From: Actinomycetes bacterium
GTDB taxonomy: Bacteria; Actinomycetota; Acidimicrobiia; Acidimicrobiales; RAAP-2
Assembly (NCBI GenBank): GCA_021799615.1
Contig: JAJZAC010000006.1
Coordinates: 1 to 51,944, forward strand
DNA length: 51,944 bases
Reading direction: 5' to 3'
Shown: piece by piece, positions 28,351-51,944 of the stretch
How the letters are laid out: each line of letters starts with the position of its first letter
Position numbering within the stretch: the stretch's first letter is position 1
Made by a program: the position numbers and the translations under genes
Notes under the pieces: generated by a model
Told to the model about the DNA's origin: nothing
Database searches by the model: none
The model's input: the letters and a program-made list of their open reading frames with translations, nothing else

Positions 28351-29289
28351 GTGTCGTTCACGGCCGTGCGGATCGCCATCGGCCGGGCGCTCCTCGTCTT
28401 CGGCATCCTCGCCCTCCTGTTCATCCCCTACGTGCTGTGGGGGACCGGCATCGTCGCCGCGCAACACCAGGCGGCACTCCGCCAGCAATTCGAGGCCGCC
28501 CGCAGGCACGCCGGCGTGGCCACGCCGCCAGCCACGCCGCCGCATCCGACGGGACCGCCGCGGGTGGCTCCTCCCACCCCCGATCCGGCGGTGGGCAGCC
28601 CGGTCGGCCAGCTGTCGATCCCGGCGCTCGGCCTCACCACCGTCGTCGTCGAGGGGACGTCCGAGGCCCAACTGCAGATGGGCCCGGGCCACTACCCGGG
28701 AACGCCCCTGCCCGGTCAGGCGGGCAACGCCGCCATCGCCGGGCACCGCACCACCTACCTCCACCCCTTCTACAGCCTGGACCACCTCCGGCCCGGCGAC
28801 CCCGTCACCGTCGTGACCCTCCAGGGGACCTTCACCTACCGGGTCACCGGCAGCCAGGTGGTGGCTCCCGACGACGTGAGCCCGGTGGCGCCGACGCCGA
28901 CGCCCGAGCTCACCCTCACCACCTGCACGCCGCTCTACAGCGCGTCCGAACGCCTGGTCGTCCACGCCACCCTGACCGCCAGCATCCTGGCCGGCGCGGC
29001 CGTTCCCGGCTCCACCACGACACCGTCCACGACACCGTCCGTGGCGTCGGCGGGCCGATCCCGGCCGCCGGCGACCGCCGCGGGACTGGCCGGTGGGACG
29101 GGGAGCTGGCTGCCGGCCCTCGTGTGGGGCCTCGTGCTCCTGGCCCTGGCCGGCGCGGTGGCGGCCCTGGCGCGGGGCCGGTCCCGGCGGGCCCGGGTCG
29201 CCACCTGCCTGGCCGGCGCGGCGGTGGGACTGGTCGTGCTGTTCTACTTCTACGGCGCCGTCACCCCGCTGCTCCCGGCCAGCTTCTGA
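28351..29289 (+). CDS. Class E sortase
   Basis: N-terminal TM; GQLSIPALGLTTVVVEGTS, GPGHYPGTPLPGQAGNAAIAGHRTTY, LTLTTCTPLYSASERLVVHA; additional C-terminal TM segments. TAACAT 6 nt before GTG. Confidence 0.92.
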   Translation: MSFTAVRIAIGRALLVFGILALLFIPYVLWGTGIVAAQHQAALRQQFEAARRHAGVATPPATPPHPTGPPRVAPPTPDPAVGSPVGQLSIPALGLTTVVVEGTSEAQLQMGPGHYPGTPLPGQAGNAAIAGHRTTYLHPFYSLDHLRPGDPVTVVTLQGTFTYRVTGSQVVAPDDVSPVAPTPTPELTLTTCTPLYSASERLVVHATLTASILAGAAVPGSTTTPSTTPSVASAGRSRPPATAAGLAGGTGSWLPALVWGLVLLALAGAVAALARGRSRRARVATCLAGAAVGLVVLFYFYGAVTPLLPASF

Positions 29290-30878: not shown

Positions 30879-32375
30879 TTACGAGGCGCCGCGGCCCTGC
30901 AGCACGGTGGCCGGCGTCTTCCACAGGATCCGGGTGTCCCACCAGAACGACCACGAGGCGACGTACAGGTAGTCGAGCCGGCACAGCTCCAGGTACGAGA
31001 GCTCGTTGCGGCCCGACACCTGCCACAGGCCGGTCATGCCCGGTCGGGCCTCGAACCGCTTGCGTGCCCACCCCTCGATGGCCTGGGCCTCGGCCACCAC
31101 GAACGGGCGGGGACCGACGAGGGACATGTCGCCCTTCCATACGTTGAACAGCTGGGGCAGCTCGTCGAGGCTGGTCCGCCGCAGGAAGCGACCGACGGCC
31201 GTCACCCGGGGGTCGTCCCGCACCTTGAAGAGGGGACCGTCGACCTCGTTGCGGTCCAGGATCTCGCAACGGGCCTGCTCGGCTCCGTCCACCATGGTGC
31301 GGAACTTCAACATCCGGAACGGCACGCCGAACCGGCCCGAGCGCTCCTGGCGGAAGAACACCGGGCCGGGGCTGGTGGCCGCGACGAGGACGGCGGTCGC
31401 TGCGAAGAAGGGCGACAGCACGAGCAGGGCCAGCGACGACGCCACCAGGTCGAAGGCGCGCTTGGCGAAGCGGGCGCCGGGGCTGAACGACGCGGGGGCC
31501 ACGTCGATGAGGGGCAGGCCCGATACGTCCTCGACACTGGAGCGGATGGTCACCAGCTCGTAGTAGCGGGGAACGATCGACACCGCCACCTGCCCGGCCA
31601 GGCTCTTCAGCATGGCGATGGTCCGCTCCGGGTGCGTCCGGGAGAAGCACACGACCACCCGCCCCACCCCGAGCGCCCGGCACAGGTCGGGCAGGTCGTC
31701 CAGCCCGCCCAGGACCCCGTCGCCATCGAGCGGGTTGTCGTCCACGTAGCCGAGGAACCGGACGTTGGCATGGGCCCGCATGTGACCGGCGACCGTGCGG
31801 GCCATGACCCCGGTGCCCACCACCACGATGGGCACCGCCGCCCGACGCAGCCGCCCGGACATGGCCACGACACCGGTGCGCGACACCGGGACCAGGACAA
31901 GGGCGATCCCGCACAGGGCGACCGTCTTGCCCACGGTCAGCTCGACGTCGCCGAAGACGCGCTCGATGCCGTAGCCGATGGCGGCGGTGGCGAACCCGCC
32001 CACGATCAGCGCGTGGGCGATGTCCTTCAGGTCGCCGACGACCGCCGTGTCGATGCGGCGGGACGCCGACCGGTACAGCCCGTAGACGGCGAAGGTCGCC
32101 AGGAAGACGGGCACCATGGCCAGGTCGAAGACGAACACGCCGCCCAGACGGTTGGCCCTGCTGGCCGGGTTCGAGGACACGGCGGCCACCACGAGCGGCG
32201 CGACCAGTGCCGCCACCACCAGGGCGGTGGCGTCGGCGGCCACCAGCCGGCGCACGGCCCGCCGGCGCATGGTCACGACCGGCGCGTCCCCACCCCGGTC
32301 GGTGGCCAACGCCGGCCACTCCTCCAGCGGCGTGAGGTCCACTGCCCGCCCGAAGCGGGGGTCGATAACGGTCAT
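30879..32375 (-). CDS. Exopolysaccharide polyprenyl glycosylphosphotransferase (WcaJ/WbaP-type sugar transferase)
   Basis: N-terminal TM bundle and CoA-binding-like domain; C-terminal KRAFDLVASSLALLVLSPFF, KFRTMV, RRTSLDELPQLFNVWKGDMSLVGPRP, RPGMTGLWQVSGRNELSY. Confidence 0.95.
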   Translation of the reverse strand: MTVIDPRFGRAVDLTPLEEWPALATDRGGDAPVVTMRRRAVRRLVAADATALVVAALVAPLVVAAVSSNPASRANRLGGVFVFDLAMVPVFLATFAVYGLYRSASRRIDTAVVGDLKDIAHALIVGGFATAAIGYGIERVFGDVELTVGKTVALCGIALVLVPVSRTGVVAMSGRLRRAAVPIVVVGTGVMARTVAGHMRAHANVRFLGYVDDNPLDGDGVLGGLDDLPDLCRALGVGRVVVCFSRTHPERTIAMLKSLAGQVAVSIVPRYYELVTIRSSVEDVSGLPLIDVAPASFSPGARFAKRAFDLVASSLALLVLSPFFAATAVLVAATSPGPVFFRQERSGRFGVPFRMLKFRTMVDGAEQARCEILDRNEVDGPLFKVRDDPRVTAVGRFLRRTSLDELPQLFNVWKGDMSLVGPRPFVVAEAQAIEGWARKRFEARPGMTGLWQVSGRNELSYLELCRLDYLYVASWSFWWDTRILWKTPATVLQGRGAS

Positions 32376-32506: not shown

Positions 32507-34999
32507 CTATGGGCCGTTGGTTGTTTTTTTCGCTTCCACCACGACAGGTGCTGACCTGCGCGCGTTGAGTGCGCGTACGCGCCCTCGCAGCGCCGGTGGC
32601 GCACCGGCGCCACCCCGGGCGCCCAACGGTCGGACACGAACGGTGCGCCGCCCGCCGGGGGGCAGGTGGAACCACGAGTCGGACGGGACGTACCCGGGGA
32701 CCTCGATCGCCACCCACCGGGCGGCCCGGATGGTCGACACCTCGATCTCCCCGGCGCCTCCCCCGGCCGGCGCGGCGGCGGCCAGGCCCACGTCGGGCTC
32801 CGGGACCCAGCCGGGTTCGTCCAGGGCCACCACGTCCTCGAACACCGTCCGGCCCTGCGGCCCGGTCAACCGGACGGCCATCGTCGGGTACGGCACGGGT
32901 CCGAACCGGTGGGCACCGGTCAGGTCGGCGAACCGTCCGAGCAGCGTCACCGGCTCGACGGTGACCGAGCCGCCGGCCCGGAGCGAGACGGGTACCGCCA
33001 TCGCCTCGAGCGGCTCCGGCGCCTCGCCGTAGAGCTCGAGGTGCAACAAGCCCTCGACCCCCTCCGGGCGGTCGCACACCACGTGGAGCCGGAGCCCGTT
33101 CACGCCCTCGTCCGTCACCACCACGCTGACCGGCGCCCAGACCCGCGCCAGCGCGTAGTACGGCGCCTTCGGTAGGCCGGTGGCGTCGATCACCCCCCAG
33201 CCCGCACCCGGGCGCAGGTCACGCAGGCACACCAGCAGGGTGCCGGCGCACGGCGATCCCGGACGGCGCCACTCGGCCGCCGCCCCGGCCATCAGCTCGG
33301 CGACGGTGGCCCGGGCCAGGTCGAGGGCACGGCCGGCGTCGGCGAAGCGGGCCGCCCTCGGCTCGACCCCGAACCGGCGGGCGACGTACTCGTCGCGTAC
33401 GTCCTCCAGGTCCCAGGCCCGCCCGGTGTCGTGGTGGACGGCGGCCTTCCAGGCCGGATCGTGACCGGCCGCCGCCGGACCGCCGAACCACCGGTCGACG
33501 GTGGGGGGCTCGGGGGGCACGGCGAAGGCCAGACCCTCCGACACGAACCGGGGGGCTGCCCGGCGGGCGTCGTCCGGCGGGCGGCGGTACGTCCCGATGC
33601 CGAAGTAATGGCACACACCCTCGTCCGACCGGAACGGCGGGTCGCCCCCCGTCGGGCTCGACGGCAGGTAGGGCACGCCGGGGAGGAGGCCGGCGACGGT
33701 ACCGGGCAACGTCGAGCTCACCAGCGGGATCCGCCGCCGGCCGGCCTCCAGCCCGAACATGGCCGCCTGCTCCTCCAGCTCCTGCCCGCCGCACACCACG
33801 GCCAGGCACGGGTGCCCGCCACGGGGGCCGAACTGCTCGGTGACCTCGGCCACCACCTCGGCCGCGAAGTCGTCACCGTCCGGGGGGTCGAGGTAGCCGA
33901 GCATGCAGTCGTGCCACACGGCGATGCCCAGCTCGTCGCACAGGTCGACGACGGTGTCGCTGGCGTACACGGTGCCACCGGGCACCCGTACCAGGTTGCA
34001 GCCGGCGTCACGGGCCAACTCGAGGGTGGCCCGGACCTCGCCGGGGTCGTCGACCAAGCCGACCGGGTCCACGGGAAACCACGCCGCGCCCCGGGCGAAG
34101 ATCGGCGTGCCGTTCCATACCAGGGTGAACCCGCCGCCGGACCGGTCGGCTTCGACGGTGCGGAACCCCACCCGCCCGAGGAGGTGCTCCTCGCCGCCCC
34201 ATCCCAGCACCACCTCGGTGCGCGGCTGGCCACCGTGGGTGTGGGGCCACCACCGATCCACCTCGTCCAGCACCAGCGTGGCCCTGCGGCGGCCGCCGGG
34301 CGCGGCGACCAGCCCGGCCCGCACGCCGGCGGCCTCGACCCACGCCCTCCCGTCCCCGCCGTCGGCGTCGACGTCGGCCAGCTCCACGTGGACCCGGCCG
34401 CCGCCGCCGACGCACTCGGTCCGCAGGCCGACGAGGCGCGGGCACGGGGAGGTGACGAGGGTGACCGGGCGCCACGGACCCACCGGTGCCGGCGTCACCG
34501 TCCACCCCGGCTGGCGCCCCAGCAGCGTGGTGCGGAACCAGCGGAGGTTCTGGTGGGTGGCCAGGCCCGTCCTCCAGCGGGGGCGGGGACGCCGCACGGC
34601 GAGGAGGGGCGCGAGGGCCCGGAAGCAGATGGCCACGTCGGTCCGGCCCTCGGCCAGGGTCACCCGGGCACGGGTGGCACGGAACATGTTCACCGAGCGC
34701 GCCACCTCGACCCCGTCGACGAAGACCTCGGCCACCGACGCCAGGCCGGCGAGCTCGAGGGTGGCGGACCCCGTTCCCGCCGGGTGCTCGACGGTGCACC
34801 GGTACCACCAGTCGGCACCGTCGAGCTCCGCCGTCGTGGGCAGCGCACGCCCGGCCGCGTCCCAGGCCCCGGCCACCGTGCCGGGAACGGTGGCCGGGGT
34901 CCACCGGAGCGGCAGCCCGTCCAGGTCGTCGGGCACGGCCGCCTCCCCCGGCACCGTGCCGGCGCACTCCCACGCCGCACCGGCGAGCAGGTCAGGCAC
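32507..34999 (-). CDS. Glycoside hydrolase family 2 / beta-mannosidase-like protein
   Basis: Jelly-roll-like N-terminus (WWYRCTVEHPAG...LELAGLASVAEVFVDGVEVARS), catalytic region LGIAVWHDCMLGYLDPPDGDDFAAEVVAEVTEQFGPRGGHPCLAVVCGGQELEEQ, RFVSEGLAF. Confidence 0.8.
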   Translation of the reverse strand: MPDLLAGAAWECAGTVPGEAAVPDDLDGLPLRWTPATVPGTVAGAWDAAGRALPTTAELDGADWWYRCTVEHPAGTGSATLELAGLASVAEVFVDGVEVARSVNMFRATRARVTLAEGRTDVAICFRALAPLLAVRRPRPRWRTGLATHQNLRWFRTTLLGRQPGWTVTPAPVGPWRPVTLVTSPCPRLVGLRTECVGGGGRVHVELADVDADGGDGRAWVEAAGVRAGLVAAPGGRRRATLVLDEVDRWWPHTHGGQPRTEVVLGWGGEEHLLGRVGFRTVEADRSGGGFTLVWNGTPIFARGAAWFPVDPVGLVDDPGEVRATLELARDAGCNLVRVPGGTVYASDTVVDLCDELGIAVWHDCMLGYLDPPDGDDFAAEVVAEVTEQFGPRGGHPCLAVVCGGQELEEQAAMFGLEAGRRRIPLVSSTLPGTVAGLLPGVPYLPSSPTGGDPPFRSDEGVCHYFGIGTYRRPPDDARRAAPRFVSEGLAFAVPPEPPTVDRWFGGPAAAGHDPAWKAAVHHDTGRAWDLEDVRDEYVARRFGVEPRAARFADAGRALDLARATVAELMAGAAAEWRRPGSPCAGTLLVCLRDLRPGAGWGVIDATGLPKAPYYALARVWAPVSVVVTDEGVNGLRLHVVCDRPEGVEGLLHLELYGEAPEPLEAMAVPVSLRAGGSVTVEPVTLLGRFADLTGAHRFGPVPYPTMAVRLTGPQGRTVFEDVVALDEPGWVPEPDVGLAAAAPAGGGAGEIEVSTIRAARWVAIEVPGYVPSDSWFHLPPGGRRTVRVRPLGARGGAGAPPALRGRVRALNARRSAPVVVEAKKTTNGP

Positions 35000-35963
35000 C
35001 GAGCCGCGCCTCCACGATCTCGACGCCCCGGTTCCAGCCGGCCGTCATCTGGGCCAGGGGGCCGTCGAGGTCGCCGCTCCGGCCCCGGGCCCGCCGGGCC
35101 AGTACGAACTGGAGCGTCTTCGCCGCCTCGGCCGCACCGGCGAGCGCCGCTGACGCCGGCGCCAGGTCACCCACGTGGGGATCGAGCCACGTCGCCAGGG
35201 ATGCCGCCAGCTCGGCGCCGGCTCCGAACTGCCGGCAGGTCCCGAAGGCGTAGGCGTGGAACGCCTCGGGCCCCGAGGCGGCCAACCAGGGGAGGTCGTC
35301 ACGGATGCGCCGTCCCAGCTCGCCCACGGGGTCGCCGGGCACGCGGCGGTCCAGGTGGTCGCGCGCGGTGGCGACGACCCGGTCGACCAGGTCTGCGGGG
35401 GTGCGGGCACCGCCGATCTTCACCACCTCGACGTACGGCGGGAGGGCCGGTGGCGCCGAGCCGACCACGGCGGCGGCGTCCGCGCCGTCCACCTCGAAGT
35501 AGCCCCCGTTGTGGAAGTAGCCGACGGCCGGCCCGTCGCGGTCGAAGGCGTTGGCCACGATCGTCGTCTTGGTGTGCTCGATCCGGTAGGAGACGCCCGC
35601 CGTGTCCGGAAGGAACCAGGCGTCCGCCTCCACGGTGAGGAGGTGGCCGAGCCCGAGGTGCTCGTCGACGTGCTCGGCCAGGGGCCGCCACACGTTGAGC
35701 TCGGCGACCTCGATGCCGTAGAGGGAACGCAGGTCCTCGACCGGGTACTTGGAGAAGGTCCACTGGTCACCCTCGAACCCGGCGCTCAGGGTGAAGGCGG
35801 TACCGGCCACCGGGTCGAGCCCGAGCGAGGCGAGCACCTCGATCCATACGTCGATGGCGCAGTTCGTCTCGGTCCAGATCCGGTCGGGGGCGTGCAGGGG
35901 GTGGGGCCGGTACCCGGCAGCGTCGAGCTCGAGGAGCCGGCGAGGCCAGGGCCCCCGCCTCAC
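34992..35963 (-). CDS. DUF1839 family protein
   Basis: NCAIDVWIEVLASLGLDPVAGTAFTLSAGFEGDQWTFSKYPVEDLRSLYGIEVAELNVWRPL...EADAWFLPDTAGVSYRIEHTKTTIVANAFDRDGPAVGYFHNGGYFEVDG; GTGA overlap with the ligase. Confidence 0.88.
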   Translation of the reverse strand: MRRGPWPRRLLELDAAGYRPHPLHAPDRIWTETNCAIDVWIEVLASLGLDPVAGTAFTLSAGFEGDQWTFSKYPVEDLRSLYGIEVAELNVWRPLAEHVDEHLGLGHLLTVEADAWFLPDTAGVSYRIEHTKTTIVANAFDRDGPAVGYFHNGGYFEVDGADAAAVVGSAPPALPPYVEVVKIGGARTPADLVDRVVATARDHLDRRVPGDPVGELGRRIRDDLPWLAASGPEAFHAYAFGTCRQFGAGAELAASLATWLDPHVGDLAPASAALAGAAEAAKTLQFVLARRARGRSGDLDGPLAQMTAGWNRGVEIVEARLGA

Positions 35964-36868
35964 GGCCACAAGGCGGCCCGGACCGGTGCCGGCCACCGGT
36001 CGGTCCGGATGCCGTGCCGGGCGAACAGGGCGAGGGTGATGCGGTCGACGCCGAACCCGAAGCAGGCGGTGTGGGCCACCTCGCCGTCGGCCGTCGTGAT
36101 GCCGAAGGGCAGGGCGAAATGGTCGAGGTGGCAGTTGGCCGAGCACAGGGCGACCGGTGGGCCGTCGTCGACGTGCGCCACCAGTTCCAGCTTCAGCACC
36201 TGGTCCCGCTGGCTGGCGGCCAGGATCCGGCCGGCCCGGCCGAAGAACGGGTCGTTGGCCACCTCGGTCTCGACCTCGAGCCCGAGGCCGGCGAGGACGT
36301 CCGCCCCCCGCTGCGCCCACCGGTCCCGGTGGCGGCGGGCCCCCTCCGGCCCGTCGAGGGCGACGTAGTCGTGCTGACGGAAGCTCTGCATGCGGAACGG
36401 GTCGGTGCTGGGTTCGTGGCGGAAGCACCATCCGGACACCTCGACCAGGCGGCCCCCCTCGGGGAGGGTGCCGGCGCACGTCGGGTAGAGCGGGTGGCAG
36501 ACGGCCGGGCACAGGACGACGTCGGTCGGCGGCAGGTGGTCGGCCCACGGCGCTCCCGACTCGACGGCGGCCAGCAGGTCGGCATGGGCGGCCTCGTCGC
36601 CGCCGAACGAGTGGACGGATCCCATCAGGTCGGGGAAGGACTCGAGGTACCCGCTCTTCTCGAAGACGGTCCGCGGCATCACGGGCGGGAACCGGACTGA
36701 CGCCACCGGCAGCCCGGCCCCGGCCCGCAGGATCACGTCCTCGAGCCCGGCGACGACCGCTTCGTAGGAGGCGGACCGGCCGTCGACGCCCGCCGCCGAG
36801 GTGGGCACGAGCAGCCCGGCCTCGACGAGTGCCGCCCGCAGGCGGGCCCGGCCGTCGCCGGCCGTCAC
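35960..36868 (-). CDS. Amino acid:[carrier protein] ligase (class II SerRS-like, lacks tRNA-binding domain)
   Basis: VRFPPVMPRTVFEKSGYLESFPDLMGSVHSF, class II motif 2 CFRHEPSTDPFRMQSFRQHDYV, CSANCHLDHF, motif 3 CFGFGVDRITLALF; only 302 aa. Confidence 0.92.
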   Translation of the reverse strand: MTAGDGRARLRAALVEAGLLVPTSAAGVDGRSASYEAVVAGLEDVILRAGAGLPVASVRFPPVMPRTVFEKSGYLESFPDLMGSVHSFGGDEAAHADLLAAVESGAPWADHLPPTDVVLCPAVCHPLYPTCAGTLPEGGRLVEVSGWCFRHEPSTDPFRMQSFRQHDYVALDGPEGARRHRDRWAQRGADVLAGLGLEVETEVANDPFFGRAGRILAASQRDQVLKLELVAHVDDGPPVALCSANCHLDHFALPFGITTADGEVAHTACFGFGVDRITLALFARHGIRTDRWPAPVRAALWP

Positions 36869-38037
36869 TCCACCCCCCGGTGGACCAGGAGCAGCTGGGC
36901 GTTGTTGCCCAGGATCCGGTCGTTGTTGACCATGAGCGCGGCCCCGTAGGCGTCGCGGAGGTGGCGACCGAGCCCGTAGGGACCGCCGTCGCGGTACCCG
37001 GCCATGCCGCACACCTGCACGGCCCGGTGCACGACATCGACGACGAGCGTCGAGGCGGAGACCTTGAGCGAGTTCATGGCCAGGGCGAAGCCGACCGACG
37101 ACAGGACACCGGGGTCGTCCCGGGCGTCGTCGAACCGGCGGGCCCCGCCCCGCACGGCGTCGGCCAGCTGCCCGTGGACGGCCAGCAGTTCGGCAACCCG
37201 GCGGGCGGCTTCGGGCGGCGTGCCCGGGGACTTGCGCGCCGCGGCCTGGACGAACGCCCGTGCCCGCTGGGCGGCGGCCGAGGCGATGCCCCACCACACG
37301 GCACCCCACAGCACATGGGCCACCGGCAGCATGGTCCGGGCCGAGATCTCGCCGTAGGGCTCGGGCAGCACGAGGTCGTCGTCGCCCGAGGCGCGCAGCA
37401 CGAACCCCGGGCTGCACGTACCCCGGAATCCCAGGGTGTCCCACTCGCTCACCTGCTCGAGCTCCAGGTCCGGGGGACGGCACACCACCAGCACCTGGTC
37501 GTTGGGCGGGCTGGCCGCATCGCGCCGGGCGGTGACCAGCACGGCGTCGGCCTGGGCGCCGTACGAGATGACGGGCGCCTCCTTCACCAGGTGGAAGCGC
37601 CCGCCCCCACGTTCCAGGGCGCACCGGCTGGAGCGCACATCGCCCCCGATGCCCACCTCGGTGGTGGCGGAGGCCAGCAGCAGTGGGCGGTCGACCAGGC
37701 CGGCGGTGAGCTCCCGCAGGGCGGGGGTGTTCCCGTGGCGAGCCAGGCACGCCACCTGGATGTGGTGCATGGCCAGCACCATGGCGCTCGACGCGCACTG
37801 CCGGCCGAGCGCGGCGACCGACTCGGCCACCTCCGACAACGGCCGGTCGGGCCCGCCCAGGGCGGCCGGGACCAGCGCGGCCAGGACACCCTCTGCCGCC
37901 AGGGCGGCGAGGGCCTCGGTCGGGAACCGAGCCCGGCGGTCGACGTCCGCGGCGTGGGCGGCGGCCACCGCGTCGGCCACGTTCGTCACCGTCGCCACCA
38001 GCTCGGCGGTCGGCGCCGGGCCCGAGCCGTCACCCAC
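36865..38037 (-). CDS. Acyl-CoA dehydrogenase-fold flavoprotein
   Basis: FPTEALAALAAEGVLAALVPAALGGP, ASATTEVGIGGDVRSS, VQVCGMAGYRDGGPYGLGRHLRDAYGAALMVNNDRI; GTGA overlap with the ligase. Confidence 0.9.
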   Translation of the reverse strand: MGDGSGPAPTAELVATVTNVADAVAAAHAADVDRRARFPTEALAALAAEGVLAALVPAALGGPDRPLSEVAESVAALGRQCASSAMVLAMHHIQVACLARHGNTPALRELTAGLVDRPLLLASATTEVGIGGDVRSSRCALERGGGRFHLVKEAPVISYGAQADAVLVTARRDAASPPNDQVLVVCRPPDLELEQVSEWDTLGFRGTCSPGFVLRASGDDDLVLPEPYGEISARTMLPVAHVLWGAVWWGIASAAAQRARAFVQAAARKSPGTPPEAARRVAELLAVHGQLADAVRGGARRFDDARDDPGVLSSVGFALAMNSLKVSASTLVVDVVHRAVQVCGMAGYRDGGPYGLGRHLRDAYGAALMVNNDRILGNNAQLLLVHRGVE

Positions 38038-38278
38038 CGAGCAGTTCCTCGAGGGCGGCGCGGATGGCTGCCACCGACTCGAAGGTGTCCTTGCGCAACA
38101 GGTGTTCGGGGAACTCCACGTCGAACTCGTCCTCGATGCCGAGCATCACGTTGACGCTGGCGTGGGACGTCATGCCCGCCGCATACAGGTCGGCGGTGTC
38201 GTCCAACTCCTCCACGCCACGGGGAAGGCGCGCATGCGCGCCGAGCACCATCCGGATCCGATCCTCGACGTCAGCCAT
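38030..38278 (-). CDS. Acyl/aminoacyl carrier protein
   Basis: DLYAAGMTSHASVNVMLGIEDEFDVEFPEHLLRKDTFESVAAIRAALEELL; Ser in the GMTSHAS motif is the candidate phosphopantetheine site. Confidence 0.92.
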   Translation of the reverse strand: MADVEDRIRMVLGAHARLPRGVEELDDTADLYAAGMTSHASVNVMLGIEDEFDVEFPEHLLRKDTFESVAAIRAALEELLGG

Positions 38279-38777
38279 CTCCTCCACCTCGATCGACCTG
38301 TGGTCCGCTCCCGGACCCGAGCTCATCGTGCCAGCTCCGAGCTTCGCACAACGCCAGCACGACCGCAGCGGCGACACCGCCGTGATGGGTGAGGCTCACC
38401 GCCCACGAGATGACACCGACATCGGTGGCCCGGGAGGCGGCCCCGCCCGAGAGCGCGAGCTCGCACGCCCCCGACGGCCGCCGGCGCACCTCGATCTCCG
38501 TCCACGACGGGGCCCACCCGTCGGGGGCGAGCACCTTGACGACGGCCTCTTTGGCCGCGAAGCGGGCAGCCAGGCTCTCGGCCGCGTCCGGACCGGCCAC
38601 CGGCCACCGGCTGTCCGACCGCTCGGCCGCCGTGAACAGGCGCCGGGCGTAGCGGTCGCCGAAGGCGGCCAGCGAGGCGGCCACCTCCTCCACGGCGACG
38701 ACGTCGATCCCGGCCCGGTAGCGCAGCCCGGCGGGAGGCGCCGGGGCCCGCATGGCCGCAGCCATGGCCTCCGCCAT
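38271..38777 (-). CDS. AcpS-type 4'-phosphopantetheinyl transferase
   Basis: AGIDVVAVEEVAASLAAFGDRYARRLFTAAE, ESLAARFAAKEAVVKVL; overlaps the carrier-protein gene by 8 nt. The track start at 38861 would overlap the GT4 gene. Confidence 0.88.
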   Translation of the reverse strand: MAEAMAAAMRAPAPPAGLRYRAGIDVVAVEEVAASLAAFGDRYARRLFTAAERSDSRWPVAGPDAAESLAARFAAKEAVVKVLAPDGWAPSWTEIEVRRRPSGACELALSGGAASRATDVGVISWAVSLTHHGGVAAAVVLALCEARSWHDELGSGSGPQVDRGGGDG

Positions 38778-38841
38778 CGCCGCCGGTTCGACCCGGCGCG
38801 ACCTGCGGCCGCCGCCCGCCCCCGGTACCGGCCGGCCGTGG

Positions 38842-39996
38842 TCAGGCGCGGGCCAGGGCATCCCGGTAACACTCCCGGTACCGTCCGGCGATCACCTGCC
38901 AGGCGAAGTCCTCGACCCGCGCCCGCCCGGCGGCGGCCAGCCGGGCCCGACGGGCGGGGTCGGCGAGGAGCCCGGCCAGGAGCTCGGCGAACCGCGACGG
39001 GTCGGTCGGGTCGACGAGGACACCGTCCACCCCGTCGGTGACGAACTCCGGCGGGCCGCCCCGTCCGGTGGCCAGCACCGCGACCCCCGCCCGCCACGCC
39101 TCGAGGACCACGATGCCGAACGGTTCCAGACGGCTCGGCATGACGAACAGCTCGGCGCCGGCCATGGCCGCGGCCACGTCGTCGCGGTCGAGCCGCCCGG
39201 GGAAGTGCACCCGGTCGGCGATCCCGAGGCTGGTGGCCAGGGCACCCAGGCGCTCCCGCTCGGCACCGTCGCCGGCGACCACCAGGTCCGCCGTGCGGGC
39301 GGCGGGCGAGACGGCGGCGTACGCCGCCAGCAGCAGGTCGAACCCCTTCTTCTCCACCACCCGGCCCACGGCCAGGACATAGGGGGCGGCCGGGGCCCGG
39401 CGCCACCGCCCGGCCGGCGGTGCGGCCAGGTCGACACCGTTGAAGACGACGCGGCCCCGACCCGCCGCCAGCCCGAAACGGTCCTCGGCGTCGGCCAGCG
39501 TGAACGCCGAACAGGCCGTGACGACGGCCGCGTGCCGGAGGGCGGACCGCAGCGAGGCACGCAGGACGGTGGAGCGCTCGAAGATGTCGGCGTCGTCCAT
39601 CACCGTCTCGCCCTGCAGCGTGACCACCACCGGCAGGCGCCGCCAGGCGCCGAGGGCGGCGGCATAGGCGCCGTTGGGCCCGAAGCACTGGACGTGGAGC
39701 ACCTGGGGGCGGAACTCGTCGACAGCCCGCCCCAGGGCGCGCAGGGCGCGCAGGGCACCGGGACCGGACCGGGTCAGCGGTCCGGGCCGGGCCGCCGGCA
39801 GCGGCAGGGGGAAGCGCCGCACGGTGATCCCGTCGAGCACCTGACGGCTGGGCGGGTCCCGGTCGTCGGAGGTGCCCGTCCACACCTCCACCTCGTCACC
39901 GGCCTCGCGCAGGGTACGGGCCAGGTGGCGGGTGAGCTCCTCGACCCCGCCGAGGGCGGGGAGGTACGAGCTGGGCACGAGGGCGATCCTCGTCAC
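38842..39996 (-). CDS. Glycosyltransferase family 4
   Basis: VPSSYLPALGGVEELTRHLARTLREAGDEVEVWTG; VLAVGRVVEKKGFDLLLAAY; SRLEPFGIVVLEAWRAGVAVLATGRGGPPEFV. Confidence 0.93.
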   Translation of the reverse strand: MTRIALVPSSYLPALGGVEELTRHLARTLREAGDEVEVWTGTSDDRDPPSRQVLDGITVRRFPLPLPAARPGPLTRSGPGALRALRALGRAVDEFRPQVLHVQCFGPNGAYAAALGAWRRLPVVVTLQGETVMDDADIFERSTVLRASLRSALRHAAVVTACSAFTLADAEDRFGLAAGRGRVVFNGVDLAAPPAGRWRRAPAAPYVLAVGRVVEKKGFDLLLAAYAAVSPAARTADLVVAGDGAERERLGALATSLGIADRVHFPGRLDRDDVAAAMAGAELFVMPSRLEPFGIVVLEAWRAGVAVLATGRGGPPEFVTDGVDGVLVDPTDPSRFAELLAGLLADPARRARLAAAGRARVEDFAWQVIAGRYRECYRDALARA

Positions 39997-40069: not shown

Positions 40070-41146
40070 TCAGCCGATGGTCGGGTTCAGCCAGGGCTCC
40101 ACCGCTGCCAGGGTGGCTCCCGTCGGCATGGGGGCGACGTTGCTCCACTGCCCGACGCCGGGGGACCAGTAGGCGGAGAAGGCCGCCGCGTACCAGCCGG
40201 ACAGGAAGTTCTGCTCGGCACAGTCGCAGTTGGGTGCCCAGCTCGCGGGGTGGATGCCGAGGATGTTCTCGATCTGGGCGTGGCCGCCCTGGGGATCGAC
40301 GGCGGCGGCGTCGACCTCGTGACCGATCTCGAAGGCGACGATGCCGGCCAGCTGCTGGACCGTCTCACCCGGGAACACGTAGAGGGTCGAGGTGCCGCCG
40401 GCCTGTCCCCAGGTGAAGGTGGTGTTGCCGTAGAAGCCGGGAGACGGGGCGTCGGCGATGGGCAGGAACTGGATGGAGTAGCCGGGGATCCGCTGCCACG
40501 GGTACCGCACCAGGGTGAGCGCGTCGGCACCGAGCTGCTGGGGGGTCGCCGTGGCCGGCGGCGCGGCTGCCGGAGCCGCCGGCGGCGGGGCCGCGGTCGG
40601 CGGAGCGGTGCTGGCCGGGGCCGTGGTCGGCGGGACGGTCGTGGGCGGTGCCGCGGTGGGCGGGGCCGTGGTGGGCGGAGCCGTGGGCGGCGGCACGGTG
40701 GTGGGCGGAGCCGTGGGCGGCGGCACGGTGGTGGGCGGAGCCGTGGGCGGCGGCACGGTGGTGGGCGGGACGGTGGTGGGCGGAACCGGGTGCGAGGTGG
40801 AGGCCTCCCTGGCCCGCATCGGTGCCGCCACCGCAGCCACGGAGCGGGGACCCGGGGTGCCGTTGCCGCTGCTCCCGCCGAAGCCGGCGGCGCCGGCGAC
40901 GCCAGCTGCGGCCAGCACCGACAACGCCACCGCTGCCTGCAGGGAACGGGCGCTCAGCGAGCGGCCATACAGCGCCCGCCGCACCGCGTTGGCCACTCCC
41001 GGGCGGCGTCGGTCGGGACCCCGGTAGCCGGGGACGGCCACGGTGGCCGCATAGGTGGCGTCGTCGGACGGCGACGCCGGTACGGCGACGTCGTCGGCCT
41101 CGAGTCCATCGGCAAGGGGGGCAGGATCTTGCATCTCGGTCTCCAT
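40070..41146 (-). CDS. Hypothetical TM-anchored protein with Pro/Thr repeat linker and extracytoplasmic C-terminal domain
   Basis: TM region SLQAAVALSVLAAAGVAGAAGFGG; repeats PPTTVPPPTA; C-terminal FPGETVQQLAGIVAFEIGHEVDAAAVDP...NCDCAEQNFLSGWYAAAF. Confidence 0.75.
   Translation of the reverse strand: METEMQDPAPLADGLEADDVAVPASPSDDATYAATVAVPGYRGPDRRRPGVANAVRRALYGRSLSARSLQAAVALSVLAAAGVAGAAGFGGSSGNGTPGPRSVAAVAAPMRAREASTSHPVPPTTVPPTTVPPPTAPPTTVPPPTAPPTTVPPPTAPPTTAPPTAAPPTTVPPTTAPASTAPPTAAPPPAAPAAAPPATATPQQLGADALTLVRYPWQRIPGYSIQFLPIADAPSPGFYGNTTFTWGQAGGTSTLYVFPGETVQQLAGIVAFEIGHEVDAAAVDPQGGHAQIENILGIHPASWAPNCDCAEQNFLSGWYAAAFSAYWSPGVGQWSNVAPMPTGATLAAVEPWLNPTIG
40671..40760. repeat. Three perfect tandem copies of a 30-bp unit (coding PPTTVPPPTA)
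   Basis: gtgggcggagccgtgggcggcggcacggtg x3 at 40671, 40701 and 40731, then a partial copy. Confidence 0.9.
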
Positions 41147-41267: not shown

Positions 41268-42326
41268 ATGCCCCCTGCCGACTCCCCTCCCCGCCTCGTG
41301 CTCGCCTCGCTGGCGACCAGCGTCGCCATGGGGCAGCAGGCCTACGAGCGCAATCTGGCCGCGGCCCTCGGCCGGGTCGCCGGTGACGCCTGGCAGGTCC
41401 GGGAGTGCCCGGTCCATTCCCTTCGCTCCCGTGCCACCACAGGACGACGGCTCCCGCTGCGGGCGGTGGCCGGGCTGCCCGCACCCGCCGCCCGGTGGGC
41501 TGCCCGGCTCACCTACGGGCCTGCGGCGGTGGTGCACCGGCTCGACCTCCGCTTGCCACCGGCTGGTGCGCCCGAGGTCCTCACCGTGCACGACCTGGCC
41601 CCGCTGCACTTCGCCGACGAGGGCGCGCTCCCCCCGGGCTGGCGCCAGTCCGTGCGGCGCGCCGCCGTCGTGGTCGCCCCCTCGGTCTTCGCGGCAGCGG
41701 AGATCGAAGCGGCGACCGGGGTGCGGCCCGTCGTCGTCCACCATGGCGCCGACCGGGACCTGGCGGAGGCCGAACCGCTCGGCCGCGTCGAACTGGCCGC
41801 GCTCGGTATCCGGCATCCCTACGTCCTCCACGCCGGCGGATCGACGGCCCGGAAGAACCTGGCTGGCCTGGCCGAGGCGTGGAGGGCTGTCCACCGGTCC
41901 CGGCCCGACTGCATGCTCGTCCTGTGCGGGCCGGCCGACGCCCGCCGGGACGCGCTGTTCGCCGGTGTCGGCGGCACGGTGCGCCCGGGCCATCTGCCCC
42001 GGTCCACCCTGGCCGGCCTCCGCCGCGGCGCGGCCCTGGTCGTCGTACCGTCCACCTACGAGGGGTTCGGGCTGCCGGCGCTCGAGGCCATGACGGCCGG
42101 GGTACCGGTCGTGGCTGCCGCCCGTGGCGCCCTCCCGGAGATCGTCGGCGACGCCGGACTGCTGGTCGAGCCGACGGGACCGGCGTTGGCCGACGGGATC
42201 CTGGCCGCCCTGAGCGATCCGGCGGTGGGTGCGCGGGCGGCCCGCAACCGCGATCGGGCCCGGAGCCGGACGTGGGACGACGTCGCCACCGACCATCTGG
42301 CGCTGTACCGCCGCGCCCTGGCGTGA
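41268..42326 (+). CDS. Glycosyltransferase family 4
   Basis: YVLHAGGSTARKNLAGLAEAW; VPSTYEGFGLPALEAMTAGVPVVAAARGALPEIVGDAGLLVEP. Confidence 0.92.
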   Translation: MPPADSPPRLVLASLATSVAMGQQAYERNLAAALGRVAGDAWQVRECPVHSLRSRATTGRRLPLRAVAGLPAPAARWAARLTYGPAAVVHRLDLRLPPAGAPEVLTVHDLAPLHFADEGALPPGWRQSVRRAAVVVAPSVFAAAEIEAATGVRPVVVHHGADRDLAEAEPLGRVELAALGIRHPYVLHAGGSTARKNLAGLAEAWRAVHRSRPDCMLVLCGPADARRDALFAGVGGTVRPGHLPRSTLAGLRRGAALVVVPSTYEGFGLPALEAMTAGVPVVAAARGALPEIVGDAGLLVEPTGPALADGILAALSDPAVGARAARNRDRARSRTWDDVATDHLALYRRALA

Positions 42327-42368: not shown

Positions 42369-43652
42369 ATGACGGCGGCCGGGAAGCCGAACGGTGGCGA
42401 CCAGCCGCAGATCCTGGAGCCCCCGCCGAGAGCCCCGATGCAACCGTCCCCCGCCGTCACCGTCACAGGTCTTTCCAAGTCGTACCGGATCGCCCACCAT
42501 GCCGACGCGCCGGTCACCGCCACCGAGGCGCTCCTGGCCCGCGTGCGCCACCCGTTCACCCGCATGGAGCGCGAGACGTTCGACGCCCTCCGGGACGTGT
42601 CTTTCGAGATCCCCTGGGGTTCGGTCGTCGGCCTCATCGGTCGCAACGGCGCCGGCAAGTCCACACTGCTCAAGATCCTCACCCGCGTCACCGCCCCCAC
42701 CTCCGGCCGGATCGTCATGGGTGGCCGGGTGGGCAGCCTCCTCGAGATCGGGACCGGCTTCCATCCGGAGCTCACCGGCAGAGAGAACGTCTACCTGAAC
42801 GGCACCCTCCTCGGCATGCGACGGTCCGAGATCCGCTCGCGTTTCGACGACATCGTGACCTTCGCCGGCGTCGAGCGGTTCCTCGACACCCAGGTGAAGC
42901 GGTACAGCACCGGGATGTACGTGCGCCTCGCCTTCGCCGTGGCCGCCCATCTCGAGTCCGAGGTCATGGCCGTCGACGAGGTGCTGGCCGTGGGCGACGC
43001 CGACTTCCAGGCCAAGTGCCTGGAGAAGTTGCGCGAGGTCGCCCGGGGCGGGCGGACGGTCCTCCTGGTCAGCCACCAGGCGCAGACCATCGTCGACCTG
43101 TGCGACTCGGCCCTCTACCTCGAGCGGGGCAGCCTCCGCTACCAGGGGGCGGTCGACGGTGCCCTGGAGGAGTACCGGAACAGCTACCGCCGCATCCGCG
43201 ACGCGGGCCTCGACGCCTCGACCAGGCCCGGCAGCGGCGAGGTGCGCTTCACGTCGGTGCGGGCCGAACGCGACCTCTACGCGGCATCCGACGAGAAGGT
43301 GGTCCACCTCGAGGTGTCGGCCAATCCCGAACTGGCCGGCCGGTACTGGCTGGTGGCCCACGTACTCGACGACCTGGGCACCATCGTGGCCCAGTGCGAT
43401 TCGCGGGTGCTCGGGTTCTGGCTGGAACCCGACCGGCCGGCGACGTGCGAGCTCCGGTTGCGCACGCCGTGGCTGAAGCCGGGCAGCTACACCGTGGACG
43501 CCTTCGCCGTGCGGGCCAGCGACCGCATCGACGTCTGGCAGGCCGCCACGCACTTCGACGTCCTCCCCGACCCCCCGTACCCGGTGGCCACCTCCTCGGA
43601 GGCCACCGACCGCGGCGTGGTGTTCGCCGACTTCACCTACGAACGATGCTGA
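42369..43652 (+). CDS. Polysaccharide ABC transporter ATP-binding protein (Wzt/TagH-like) with C-terminal domain
   Basis: Walker A GLIGRNGAGKSTLLKIL, signature KRYSTGMYVRLAFAVAA, VMAVDEVLAVGDADFQAKC; C-terminal beta domain. The true start may be the internal ATG at 42438, since TAGCAT overlaps the 42369 ATG. Confidence 0.93.
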   Translation: MTAAGKPNGGDQPQILEPPPRAPMQPSPAVTVTGLSKSYRIAHHADAPVTATEALLARVRHPFTRMERETFDALRDVSFEIPWGSVVGLIGRNGAGKSTLLKILTRVTAPTSGRIVMGGRVGSLLEIGTGFHPELTGRENVYLNGTLLGMRRSEIRSRFDDIVTFAGVERFLDTQVKRYSTGMYVRLAFAVAAHLESEVMAVDEVLAVGDADFQAKCLEKLREVARGGRTVLLVSHQAQTIVDLCDSALYLERGSLRYQGAVDGALEEYRNSYRRIRDAGLDASTRPGSGEVRFTSVRAERDLYAASDEKVVHLEVSANPELAGRYWLVAHVLDDLGTIVAQCDSRVLGFWLEPDRPATCELRLRTPWLKPGSYTVDAFAVRASDRIDVWQAATHFDVLPDPPYPVATSSEATDRGVVFADFTYERC

Positions 43653-44521
43653 CGCCCCCCGCCGAGTCGTCCGGCACCCAGCACCCCGGACCGCCCGATG
43701 GCGCCCGCCCGGTGGTGATCGTCCCCCCGGGGCGCTGGTCCCTGCCCCGCTTCGGCCAGTTGTGGGAGAGCCGGGAGGTCTTCCTCCGCTTCGGCGCCCG
43801 GGACCTCACCCTCCGCTACCGGCAGACGGCACTCGGGATCATCTGGGTCGTCCTCCAACCGCTCCTGACCGCCGGTGTCTTCACCCTCGTCTTCGGTTCG
43901 GTGGCCAAGCTGCCCCACGGCACGGTCCCCTACTTCCTCCTCAGCTACGCCGGCATGCTGGCCTGGAACGTCTTCTCCGGCATCGTCTCGCGAGGGACGG
44001 GCTCCCTCGTGACCAACGCCAGCCTCGTGTCCAAGGTCTACTTCCCCCGCGTGCTCGTCCCCCTGTCCACCGCCTACGCCGTCGTCGTCGACTTCGCCAT
44101 CGCCCTGGTGCTCATGGCGGTGCTGCTCGCCGGCTACGGCGTGAACCCCGGGTGGGCGGTACTGGCCCTTCCCGTGTGGGTCGTGCTCCTCGTCCTGCTG
44201 GCGTCGGGCGTCACGGTGATCACCGCCGGGCTCACCGTGCGCTACCGCGACATGCAGTACATCGTCCCGTTCGTGCTCCAGCTCCTCCTCTACGCCAGTC
44301 CCATCGCCTACTCGCCGGCGGCGGTGCCGGCCCGGTACCACCTCCTCTTCGACCTCAACCCACTGGCGTGGATCCTCCAGGAGTTCCGGTGGTCGCTCAT
44401 CCGCCAACCGCTGCCCCCGGCGTGGCAGCTGGCCGCATCGGCTGCGGTCTCGGTCGGCGTGTTCGTCGGCGGCATGTTCGTCTTCGAGCGCATGGAGCGC
44501 GGCTTCGCCGACGTGATCTGA
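43646..44521 (+). CDS. Polysaccharide ABC transporter permease (Wzm/TagG-like)
   Basis: RFGARDLTLRYRQTALGIIWVVLQPLLTAGVFTLVFGSVAKLP; VRYRDMQYIVPFVLQLLLYASPIAY; 7-nt overlap with the ATPase gene. Confidence 0.93.
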   Translation: MLTPPAESSGTQHPGPPDGARPVVIVPPGRWSLPRFGQLWESREVFLRFGARDLTLRYRQTALGIIWVVLQPLLTAGVFTLVFGSVAKLPHGTVPYFLLSYAGMLAWNVFSGIVSRGTGSLVTNASLVSKVYFPRVLVPLSTAYAVVVDFAIALVLMAVLLAGYGVNPGWAVLALPVWVVLLVLLASGVTVITAGLTVRYRDMQYIVPFVLQLLLYASPIAYSPAAVPARYHLLFDLNPLAWILQEFRWSLIRQPLPPAWQLAASAAVSVGVFVGGMFVFERMERGFADVI

Positions 44522-48689: not shown

Positions 48690-51600
48690 ATGCGTTCTGC
48701 CCCGCAGACACCTGGCCGGGCGAGGGCCGCGTGCCGGGCCGCGGTCGTCTCCGTCCTCGCTGCCGCCGCCACCTGGCCGGCGCTCGCACCTCCACCGGCG
48801 GCGGCCGCCGTCGCCGGGACGTCCCCGGCCGCGCCGCTGTGCGGTGTGGCCGCCCCGTCGTCGGTGGCCGAGCCCACGGTGGCGGCTCCCTCCTCGCCGG
48901 TCCAGACCGTGGTCAGCGGCGTGCCCGTCACCAATTTCGTGGTGGTGGGAAGCGACATCGACATCTTGAGCGGTTCGTCGATCGTCGTCCGCACGCTGGC
49001 CGGCGCAGCGGTCACCAGCTTCGCGCTGCCGTTCCCGCAGGGGAACGCCAGCACGGACATGGTGGCCGACCCGTCCGGCAACCTCTACCTGTTCGGGTCC
49101 TTCTCCTACGGTTGGGGTGTCGGCAAGGTCACACCGACCGGATCCCTGGCCTGGTCGGTACCCGTCGCCGGCATCCCCAACGGCCTGTATCCCTGGCACG
49201 ACGCCTCGGGGAATTTCGCCGTCGGCGTGGTCCTGCGAGGCCAGGCGGGCGGACCGGTGCTCTCCACGACGGGCACGCAGGTCGCCACCGGTCCGGTGGC
49301 CGGCTCCGGCAACAACGACGACGTCAACCCCGGACCCAACGGCGGGCTCCTGGTGACCGACGGCACCAGCGTGACCCGCTACTCCTCGTCGGGCGCCGTG
49401 ATCGGCACCTTCGGCGCCGCCGGGGCCGCCGGCTCGCCCGACAGCCCCGGTTCCCCCTTCCACTTCTACCAGGAGGGCTTCGCCGCCCAGGTGGGGTCCA
49501 CGATCCTGGTGGCCGACGACGGGTGGCCCTCCTACGGACAGGGCATGGACCTCGTCGCCGAGAACGGCCTGGCGCCCCAGATCGTGCCCGACAGCACCCT
49601 CGGCAACGTCAGCACCAACTCGCCCGTCGCCGTGGTCGGCTCCACCGTGTACTTCGCCAACGGCAACGGGTCCCAGATCGCGTCGACGACGGTCGCCGAC
49701 CTCGAAGCGCTGGCCGCGGCACCGGCCGCGCCCCTCCAGGGAGGTTTCGGCGACACCCTGGGAATCGGTGCCGGCCTGTCCACTCCCCAGGCGGCCAACT
49801 ACTTCGCGCCGGGGACGACGCCGTCGATCACCGCCACCTTCCAGCCGTGGTGGTCGTCGTTGGCGCCGCAGCTGGACCTCAGTTACTGGGTCGCCGGGCG
49901 CAGCCAGTACACGTCGGGGGCCGTCCCCGCCCCCACCACCGCCGCCGTGTCGACGGCGGCCACTGCCACCGACGGTACCCTCACCCTGCCCCTCGCCGTT
50001 CCCCCCGCCGACCAGGGACCGGGTGTCTACCTGGTCAATGCCGATCTGGTCGACTCGACCACCGGCGCCACGGTGGGGTCCACCTGCCTCACGTACTCGG
50101 TGGGGATGGCCGGCGACACGCTCGACCTGTCCTCCCTCGCGCCCGGGATCGACTTCGGGGGCCCGGGCCCGGTGCGCGGCGTCCAGCTGGCCTCCGCGTT
50201 CGGGACCGGCCTGGACCGCACCCAACTCGACTGGGCGACCATGCTGCCGTCGTGCAACCCGTCCGCCGTCACCGCGGCCCAGTGCGGGCCGGGAGCGCTG
50301 GTGTTCACCGCCTACGATCCCGCCGTCGAACAGGCAGCTGCCGAGGCCAGGTCACTGGGTGTCGCCTACGAGGTCCAGGTGGCCGACGGGCACGCGGTGG
50401 ACAGCGCCGTGGTGAACGCCGGCGGCGGCCTTTGGGAACAGGACGTCCAGGCCATCGTGGCCCATTTCGCCACGTCCGCACCCGACCTGACCGACTTCGA
50501 GGCGTGGAACGAACCCAATGCCACGTGGACCGGCGCCACGAACTACGTCGACCAGATCCTGGCCCCCTTCTACCAGGCCGTCCAGGCGGTGAACCAGGCC
50601 ACCGGCCGCAGCGACAAGGTGGTGGGCGGCACCGTGATCGGCGCCAGCGAGTCCTACTGGCAGGCGTTCGCCGCCGCCGGCGGCTTCTCCGACGTCGACA
50701 TCGTGGCCGCCCATCCCTACACGCAGTACGACGCGTCCTTCGAGGAGGAGGGCACCATGGCCGGGCTCCAGTCCCTCCGCTCGCTCATGGCCCAGTACGG
50801 CGCGTCGGCCAAGCCCATCTGGGTCACCGAGCTCGGCTGGTGGTCCGACGGACCGGCCGCCTACTACGACGTCGGCAATTGGGTCGCCCGAGCCTGGATG
50901 TGGCTCCATTCCGTCGGCATCACCGACTGGAACTACTTCGTGACCGAGGGGGAGTTCTCGGGAACGGGCACCTCGTACTCGCTCATCCAGGGAAGCAGCC
51001 AAGACCAGTACGTGAAGCCGGCCGGGATCGCCCTGATGACCGTGTCGAACGTGCTCGGGTCCCGACCGTTCCTCGGCACGGTGCCGACCGGTGTCCCGCA
51101 TGCCACGGCCATGCTCTTCGGACCGCCGCCCGGCGGTTCGGGCGACGTGCTGGCCGCCTGGACGGACGACCTGTCGGTGCCGGCCGTCGTGTCGGTCACC
51201 GGCGGCACGGTGCCGGCGTCGCTCGCCACCACGGGCGCGCTGGGATCGAGCGGCAGCCTCGCCTTCGGTTCGGGATCCTCCGCACCCCTCGAACTGACCG
51301 GTGCTCCCGTCTACCTCCACGTGCCGTCGGGCACGACGGTGGCCATCGCTCCGGCCGAGACGTTCGGCACCGACCTCCTCCTGGCGACGGGGACGGCGGC
51401 CACCGCCTCGTCCTCGCTGTCGTCGACCAACGGCCCCGCCGACGTCCTGCGCTCCGCGGTCGTCAGCGGAGTGACGGTACCGGTGGCCGACATGGGCGGT
51501 TCGTCGACCGGGCTGTCCTCCACGCCGGTGTGGGCGTCGGCCCCCGGGGACACCACGCCCACCCTGACCGTGACCATGCCGGAACCGGCACCGGTCGACC

Positions 51601-51944
51601 GCGTGGTGGTGGCCACCAGTTCACTGGCCAGCGTGATCCCCGGGCTGCGTGACTACCAGGTCCAGCTGGACGAGGGAGGGACGTGGACCACGGTGGCGTC
51701 GGAGACGGACCAATTCTTCTCCCGCATGGCGCTGCTGAGCTTCCCGACGGCGACGGCCACCGGTGTCCGGGTGGTGGTCACGTCGATCGACGACGGCGGC
51801 TCCGCCGGCGGGATGGCACCGTGGTACTGGACGTCCTCGTTCCCCGACAACGCCGTCGTCGACGCGCTGGAGGCCTACGGCCCGGGCACGTCGACGACCA
51901 CGGCACCGCCGACCACCACGACGACCACGGCACCGCCGACCACG
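48690..51944 (+). CDS. Large secreted multidomain protein: signal peptide, propeller-like repeats, clan GH-A-like glycosidase domain, beta-sandwich, Thr/Pro linker (3' truncated by window edge)
   Basis: ATG 48690 after GGAAAGG; no stop seen to the window end (1085 codons), so it is absent from the ORF track. Motifs FEAWNEPNATW (50505-50519) and PIWVTELGWWSDG; ends TSTTTAPPTTTTTTAPPTT. Confidence 0.85.
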   Translation, partial: MRSAPQTPGRARAACRAAVVSVLAAAATWPALAPPPAAAAVAGTSPAAPLCGVAAPSSVAEPTVAAPSSPVQTVVSGVPVTNFVVVGSDIDILSGSSIVVRTLAGAAVTSFALPFPQGNASTDMVADPSGNLYLFGSFSYGWGVGKVTPTGSLAWSVPVAGIPNGLYPWHDASGNFAVGVVLRGQAGGPVLSTTGTQVATGPVAGSGNNDDVNPGPNGGLLVTDGTSVTRYSSSGAVIGTFGAAGAAGSPDSPGSPFHFYQEGFAAQVGSTILVADDGWPSYGQGMDLVAENGLAPQIVPDSTLGNVSTNSPVAVVGSTVYFANGNGSQIASTTVADLEALAAAPAAPLQGGFGDTLGIGAGLSTPQAANYFAPGTTPSITATFQPWWSSLAPQLDLSYWVAGRSQYTSGAVPAPTTAAVSTAATATDGTLTLPLAVPPADQGPGVYLVNADLVDSTTGATVGSTCLTYSVGMAGDTLDLSSLAPGIDFGGPGPVRGVQLASAFGTGLDRTQLDWATMLPSCNPSAVTAAQCGPGALVFTAYDPAVEQAAAEARSLGVAYEVQVADGHAVDSAVVNAGGGLWEQDVQAIVAHFATSAPDLTDFEAWNEPNATWTGATNYVDQILAPFYQAVQAVNQATGRSDKVVGGTVIGASESYWQAFAAAGGFSDVDIVAAHPYTQYDASFEEEGTMAGLQSLRSLMAQYGASAKPIWVTELGWWSDGPAAYYDVGNWVARAWMWLHSVGITDWNYFVTEGEFSGTGTSYSLIQGSSQDQYVKPAGIALMTVSNVLGSRPFLGTVPTGVPHATAMLFGPPPGGSGDVLAAWTDDLSVPAVVSVTGGTVPASLATTGALGSSGSLAFGSGSSAPLELTGAPVYLHVPSGTTVAIAPAETFGTDLLLATGTAATASSSLSSTNGPADVLRSAVVSGVTVPVADMGGSSTGLSSTPVWASAPGDTTPTLTVTMPEPAPVDRVVVATSSLASVIPGLRDYQVQLDEGGTWTTVASETDQFFSRMALLSFPTATATGVRVVVTSIDDGGSAGGMAPWYWTSSFPDNAVVDALEAYGPGTSTTTAPPTTTTTTAPPTT

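Follow-up and report, generated by a model that had tools for sequence, protein, structure and literature searches.

A carrier-protein-bound amino acid pathway in an actinobacterial polysaccharide locus: a candidate transferase and its partners

Where does an amino acid go once a tRNA-synthetase-like ligase has loaded it onto a carrier protein, and what would such a pathway do among polysaccharide genes? The physiological role of these ligases was open in 2010, and the question is raised anew by a seven-gene minus-strand operon (32507-39996) in contig JAJZAC010000006.1 of an Acidimicrobiales genome (GCA_021799615.1), of which the whole stretch of 51,944 nucleotides, hereafter the window, was analysed computationally. 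A probable transfer enzyme, the DUF1839 protein, and a second acyl-handling partner, a two-domain alpha/beta hydrolase, can now be named. An earlier note on this DNA, made from the letters alone, gave DUF1839 no role and missed both the hydrolase and the surrounding export locus. The system is real and conserved, and on balance, though only just, we consider it probable that the operon encodes an aminoacyl-carrier pathway acting in polysaccharide synthesis by the mechanism set out below.

The genes run in the order GT4 glycosyltransferase, AcpS-type phosphopantetheinyl transferase (PPTase), carrier protein, acyl-CoA dehydrogenase (ACAD)-fold flavoprotein, SerRS-like ligase, DUF1839 and GH2 (Table 1). 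None has internal stops, and the successive junctions overlap by 20, 8, 8, 4, 4 and 8 nt; the first value assumes that the PPTase starts at ATG 38861, and the 4 nt between ligase and DUF1839 become 10 nt if DUF1839 starts at GTG 35969. A gap of 131 nt separates GH2 from the priming transferase gene that follows. Family scans bore out all seven assignments, and the coupled operon described in the earlier note was thus recovered in its genes, families and overlaps. The arrangement is not a matter of chance, since relatives and bacteria of other phyla show it as well.

DUF1839 is, with moderate confidence, the best candidate for the transferase, a proposal that leans on its predicted structure. 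In an alignment of 86 sequences Cys37, His153 and Asp164 are invariant and position 135 is always Thr or Ser (numbering from GTG 35969); a papain-like fold with a C-(T/S)-H triad has been proposed for this family earlier (PMC10318531). The AlphaFold2 model (predicted local distance difference test score, pLDDT, 92.9) was compared with the PDB by Foldseek, and all 17 matches with E ≤ 1e-3 are AziU3/U2, CcbD or CtaG, the next match having an E-value of 0.15. Template modelling (TM) scores against the CcbD/CtaG/AziU3 class are about 0.55-0.63, with E-values of 8.5e-8 to 6e-5. CcbD takes proline from its carrier onto a cysteine of its own before passing it to the thio-octose amino group, and it binds the carrier via C-terminal arginines (PMC12945683). 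The conserved Arg292 and Arg295 of DUF1839, in a basic C-terminal helix, lie roughly as far from the C-terminus as these arginines. No earlier mention of a fold link between DUF1839 and CcbD was found in the available literature.

Loading of the carrier is the part of the mechanism in which we have high confidence. The ligase and the carrier protein both score above the curated equivalog cut-offs (NF005479 and NF005480), the cognate carrier gene adjoins the ligase gene in the same operon, and the phosphopantetheine serine of the carrier lies within a GMTSHAS motif that is kept in relatives. The ligase matches the Bll0957 structures 3mey and 4h2w with E-values of 1e-66 to 1e-68. It has no counterpart of the N-terminal tRNA-binding part of archaeal SerRS, aligning only to positions 247-503 of a 518-position SerRS model, and its Cys124, Glu152 and Cys269, invariant in nine aligned members, are presumably the Cys-Glu-Cys zinc ligands. 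The PPTase starts at ATG 38861 (196 aa) or further in; it is an extra copy, since the genome holds two other ACPS-family genes besides it, three in all.

The earlier note had the flavoenzyme modify the aminoacyl thioester, which can be kept in a refined form. The column of the canonical catalytic glutamate is Val or Ile in 96 of 96 sequences and the alternative base site is Ser or Ala in nearly all of them, both positions having been assigned by hand from known ACADs, while His241, Trp244, Trp248, Asn372 and Arg374 are near-invariant. The nitrososynthase DnmZ is among the PDB sequence relatives of the protein. The lost dehydrogenase glutamate, taken with this relative, favours an enzyme that acts on the aminoacyl group while it is bound to the carrier, with oxygenase or oxidase chemistry more likely than alpha,beta-dehydrogenation. 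GH2 keeps both catalytic glutamates (Glu407 in 74/77 and Glu488 in 77/77 sequences) and is nearest to beta-mannosidases (6bye, E 7e-35). No signal peptide was evident on inspection by eye, and the enzyme is therefore probably cytosolic. The only match in a scan against a defence library was a weak, partial one to GH2.

The eighth gene surfaced when the neighbours at ligase loci were clustered, and its family is present in more than half of the loci. The protein is a fusion of domains like exosortase-associated hydrolase 2 and hydrolase 1 (TIGR03101/TIGR03100), remaining well below the equivalog cut-offs of both (for TIGR03101, the window protein scores 71.1 against 202.75 bits). Its first nucleophile elbow reads GMRMG, with the nucleophile Ser lost, and its second reads GLCSG with Cys441, joined by Glu541 and His575; the Cys is found in 60/62 sequences and the acid position is Asp or Glu. 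The hydrolase occurs in 28 of 101 related genomes, including all 26 with the ligase (hypergeometric 4e-22, kinship ignored), and in loci without DUF1839 and GH2 its gene directly follows that of the ligase. A fold search with the AlphaFold2 model (pLDDT 83) returned only generic esterases and lipases and was uninformative. The protein is a candidate second acyl transferase or thioesterase. Exosortase-A loci with a ligase, a decarboxylase and a carrier protein offer a parallel; this stays a lead, since in Rhizobacter a further locus with such a hydrolase has no recognisable ligase or decarboxylase neighbours.

Among the 101 relatives DUF1839 is found in 13, all within the 26 that have the ligase and always adjoining it, and in a phylum sample it is found in three of 398 genomes, each time with a ligase at most about 2.5 kb away. 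A scan of named genomes gave 80 ligase loci from Actinomycetota, Acidobacteriota, Planctomycetota, Proteobacteria, Myxococcota and Chloroflexota. Carrier protein, ACAD, ligase, DUF1839 and GH2 are all present in 60 of the 80, nearly always in that order, several of the other 20 stopping at contig edges. By this distribution the five genes are an old, widespread cassette of at least six phyla. DUF1839 and GH2 are tied to each other: across 66 loci both are present in 56, neither in nine and DUF1839 alone in one. The presence of the full cassette requires at least 11 changes on the ligase tree, a count that would miss genes lying elsewhere in draft genomes, and the ACAD/DUF1839/GH2 part has therefore been repeatedly lost or gained. 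The same gene order is also found on annotated plasmids of Azospirillum, Burkholderia, Mycetohabitans, Phyllobacterium, Rhizobium and Shinella, with GH2 in some cases detected by profile only and cut short on the Rhizobium plasmid. The PPTase is common among actinobacterial loci and occurs also in Dictyobacter and some Myxococcales, while the window-type GT4 is confined to near relatives (loci L022, L031, L036, L037, L051-L053 and L055); both are lineage additions to the core. The search for the gene order across genomes proposed in the earlier note thus upholds DUF1839 and GH2 as companions of the ligase, and GT4, whose absence from other ligase loci the earlier note itself had named as a refutation, has to be dropped as a core partner.

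Three further observations concern the cassette loci. Alanine dehydrogenase genes lie near the cassette in eight loci of Rhodococcus and Burkholderia (e.g. L073, 1419-2531; L050, 9280-10416), a hint at alanine supply that is suggestive only. Radical SAM and LysRS-like (EpmB/EpmA-like) genes are found just upstream of it in about seven Rhizobium-type loci (L104, 7075-8337; L127, 6139-7254). A contig of a metagenome-assembled genome titled Klebsiella pneumoniae (L088) bears the cassette, with a ligase that sits on a long branch of the tree, and the title of this contig is possibly a misclassification.

The link with glycans was examined in the flanks of the loci. A GT4 or priming transferase was found beside 28 of 65 longer ligase loci and in none of 30 control stretches (Fisher 2e-6), with the reservations that clades are not independent and that the controls were hand-picked from a partly overlapping genome set. 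This enrichment supports the earlier note where it places, beside polysaccharide genes, a pathway that works with a carrier-bound amino acid and brings a PPTase of its own. In Burkholderia the cassette stands between Crp/Fnr and sigma-54 regulators, and its neighbours include ManC and an undecaprenyl-phosphate glucose phosphotransferase, an arrangement that matches becA-R of B. pseudomallei and BCAM1334-1350 of B. cenocepacia (PMC5507470). The Bep cluster also holds the TIGR03100 hydrolase Bcam1334 (PMC3584217). By gene content, then, the cassette sits in the biofilm polysaccharide clusters (Bep/bec) controlled by cyclic di-GMP (c-di-GMP). From annotation and position, becG (acyl-CoA dehydrogenase) would be the ACAD of the cassette.

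Taken together, these observations suggest the following mechanism. The operon PPTase would turn the carrier protein into the holo-carrier, after which the ligase would adenylate a small amino acid and load it on the carrier; to judge by its characterised homologues, this would be Gly or Ala. The flavoprotein would then oxidise the aminoacyl group on the carrier, more likely by oxygenase or oxidase than by dehydrogenase chemistry. The invariant Cys of DUF1839 would accept the aminoacyl group and pass it to an amine, most likely that of an amino sugar or a sugar-linked intermediate; GH2 would trim or free the sugar part inside the cell, and the Cys-nucleophile hydrolase would carry out a second acyl transfer or clear mischarged carrier. 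We infer the substrates, the direction, the acceptor and the order of the last four steps from these residues, folds and gene associations, and our confidence is low for the acceptor and for what GH2 and the hydrolase do. The earlier note left the amino acid to be either transferred to a glycan or released from it; transfer is the better supported of the two.

Several points weigh against this reading. A DUF1839 profile run against PDB sequences finds no CcbD, CtaG or AziU3/U2, and the candidate triad C-(T/S)-H differs from the C-H-E of CcbD; in the lack of sequence similarity DUF1839 is better said to work like CcbD than to belong to its class. The becG insertion, the only mutant value found, is mild (0.84±0.08 in the biofilm table of PMC5507470). 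The published Bep repeat is neutral and has no amino sugar or substituent, the structure having been solved in NaOD (PMC7084887). Ester-linked aminoacyl groups would be lost in NaOD and amide-linked ones not readily, which makes for genuine tension with the idea of a main-chain amide. Finally, 37 of the 65 ligase loci have no GT4 or priming transferase in their flanks. This is what would be expected if the cassette made a diffusible aminoacyl-glycoside, like a lincosamide or mycothiol, and only sometimes lay beside polysaccharide genes. The natural-product enzymes that are the only fold matches of DUF1839, the plasmid copies next to unrelated genes and the probably intracellular GH2 speak for the same alternative. 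We nevertheless regard it as rather unlikely, given the enrichment of polysaccharide genes at ligase loci, the position of the cassette within both the Bep/bec clusters of Burkholderia and the export locus of the window, and the lack of a recurring dedicated small-molecule exporter among the family-scanned neighbours.

The alkaline conditions bear on another alternative, in which the Cys alpha/beta hydrolase, and not DUF1839, esterifies the amino acid to hydroxyls of the polymer, as an intracellular counterpart of Dlt. Esters would have been stripped from Bep, which offers no amino sugar, and the hydrolase persists where DUF1839 and GH2 are missing and accompanies the ligase in every relative that has it. 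Most loci also have DUF1839, though, whose fold relatives make amides, and the neighbours that were scanned included no membrane partner of the Dlt type, which makes this alternative improbable. The role that was first suggested for the ligase family, supplying non-ribosomal peptide synthesis, is very improbable here: the ligase and its carrier do resemble a stand-alone loading module, but no non-ribosomal peptide synthetase module recurs among the scanned neighbours, and GH2 is tied to DUF1839. The polysaccharide reading can be put in a more specific form, which we offer tentatively, as possible rather than probable. DUF1839 and the Cys hydrolase would be the transferases of a widespread intracellular system that draws on a carrier protein to aminoacylate exopolysaccharide intermediates, the amino acid having been modified by the flavoenzyme. 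It would act on the Bep/bec polysaccharides of Burkholderia as well, where a structure solved in alkali would conceal any part bound as ester. Should the polysaccharide reading hold, bacteria would have a carrier-protein route that puts modified amino acids onto their surface sugars.

From about 30.9 kb to its end, the window reads as a polysaccharide export locus (Table 1). The fusion of GT2 and ATP-grasp domains was considered as a core member and rejected, its full-length copy being confined to the same genus; such a copy was seen in one same-genus genome only, there with one in-frame TGA. An open reading frame directly upstream of GT4 (40070-41146, minus strand) has a probable membrane segment, a long Pro/Thr repeat linker and no known domain. 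Just beyond the polysaccharide locus lies an open reading frame with a sortase domain (28351-29289, plus strand).

Table 1. Genes of the operon and of the surrounding locus, with their positions in the window
Feature	Position	Strand	Basis and remarks
GT4 glycosyltransferase, 384 aa	38842..39996	-	PF00534, 141.5 bits; first operon gene; lineage-specific addition
AcpS-type PPTase	38271..38861	-	PF01648 (ACPS), 47.9 bits
Carrier protein, 82 aa	38030..38278	-	NF005480, 96.1 bits (cut-off 72)
ACAD-fold flavoprotein, 390 aa	36865..38037	-	PF02771 and PF00441 (ACAD N and C domains)
SerRS-like amino acid--[carrier protein] ligase, 302 aa	35960..36868	-	NF005479, 394.9 bits (cut-off 357)
DUF1839, predicted carrier-protein-dependent aminoacyl transferase	34992..35963	-	PF08893, 338.7 bits (gathering cut-off 22.5)
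GH2 beta-mannosidase-like protein, 830 aa	32507..34999	-	PF22666; GH2-type N2 and Ig_mannosidase domains
Exopolysaccharide priming glycosylphosphotransferase	30879..32375	-	TIGR03025, 364.7 bits (cut-off 295.55); downstream of the operon
Second GT4 glycosyltransferase	41268..42326	+	PF13692, 80.9 bits
Wzt-like ABC ATPase of polysaccharide exporter	42369..43652	+	PF00005, 72.7 bits
Wzm-like ABC-2 type permease	43646..44521	+	Read from the translation alone; overlaps ATPase gene
GT2 and ATP-grasp fusion, 726 aa	44570..46750	-	Pfam; overlaps hydrolase gene by 4 nt
Two-domain alpha/beta hydrolase (hydr2_PEP/hydr1_PEP-like), 603 aa	46747..48558	-	366.8 bits, profile of ligase-neighbour proteins
Secreted glycoside-hydrolase-like protein	48690..51944	+	PF11790 and F5/8 type C domains; runs off the window

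In the available literature we found no paper that names the end product of the pathway. The joining of an amino acid to a surface sugar was already predicted in a note in proof by Iyer et al. 2010 (PMC2922099), and the inference of the earlier note is thus a rediscovery of essentially the same prediction. The gene set described there is that of the window, with ACP (the carrier protein), redox enzyme, conserved open reading frame, glycosidase and liposaccharide genes, and the chemistry is the same, Agrobacterium Atu2574 being treated as an amide ligase; the available part of that paper holds no fold evidence, hydrolase partner, loss of the ACAD base or Burkholderia link. Beyond that prediction, the present analysis supplies fold evidence for DUF1839 as transferase, recognises the hydrolase as a partner, finds the ACAD base to be missing, shows how broadly the cassette is spread and links it to Bep/bec. 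The window ligase belongs to the same family as the amino acid:[carrier protein] ligase Bll0957 of Bradyrhizobium (Mocibob et al. 2010, as cited in PMC9437257). The locus tags bll0957 and bll0958 (acyl-CoA dehydrogenase) are consecutive there; the window differs in that GT4 and a PPTase precede the shared genes and that these lie within a polysaccharide export locus of an actinobacterium.

In Dlt D-alanylation, too, a carrier-bound amino acid is delivered to a surface polymer. Dlt employs an adenylation-domain ligase and a membrane acyltransferase, in contrast to the window, in which there is a weak DltC match. The lincosamide condensation enzymes CcbD/LmbD, with the carrier CcbZ, share with DUF1839 the predicted fold, the nucleophile Cys and a carrier-bound amino acid. 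The Burkholderia clusters Bep (Bcam1330-1341) and becA-R hold the cassette, as the window locus does, together with a TIGR03100 hydrolase; they are regulated by c-di-GMP via BerA/BerB, and unlike the window their cassette has neither a PPTase nor the window-type GT4. The cassette is thereby tied to genetically tractable biofilm polysaccharide clusters, in which a few bench experiments could address the question raised at the outset.

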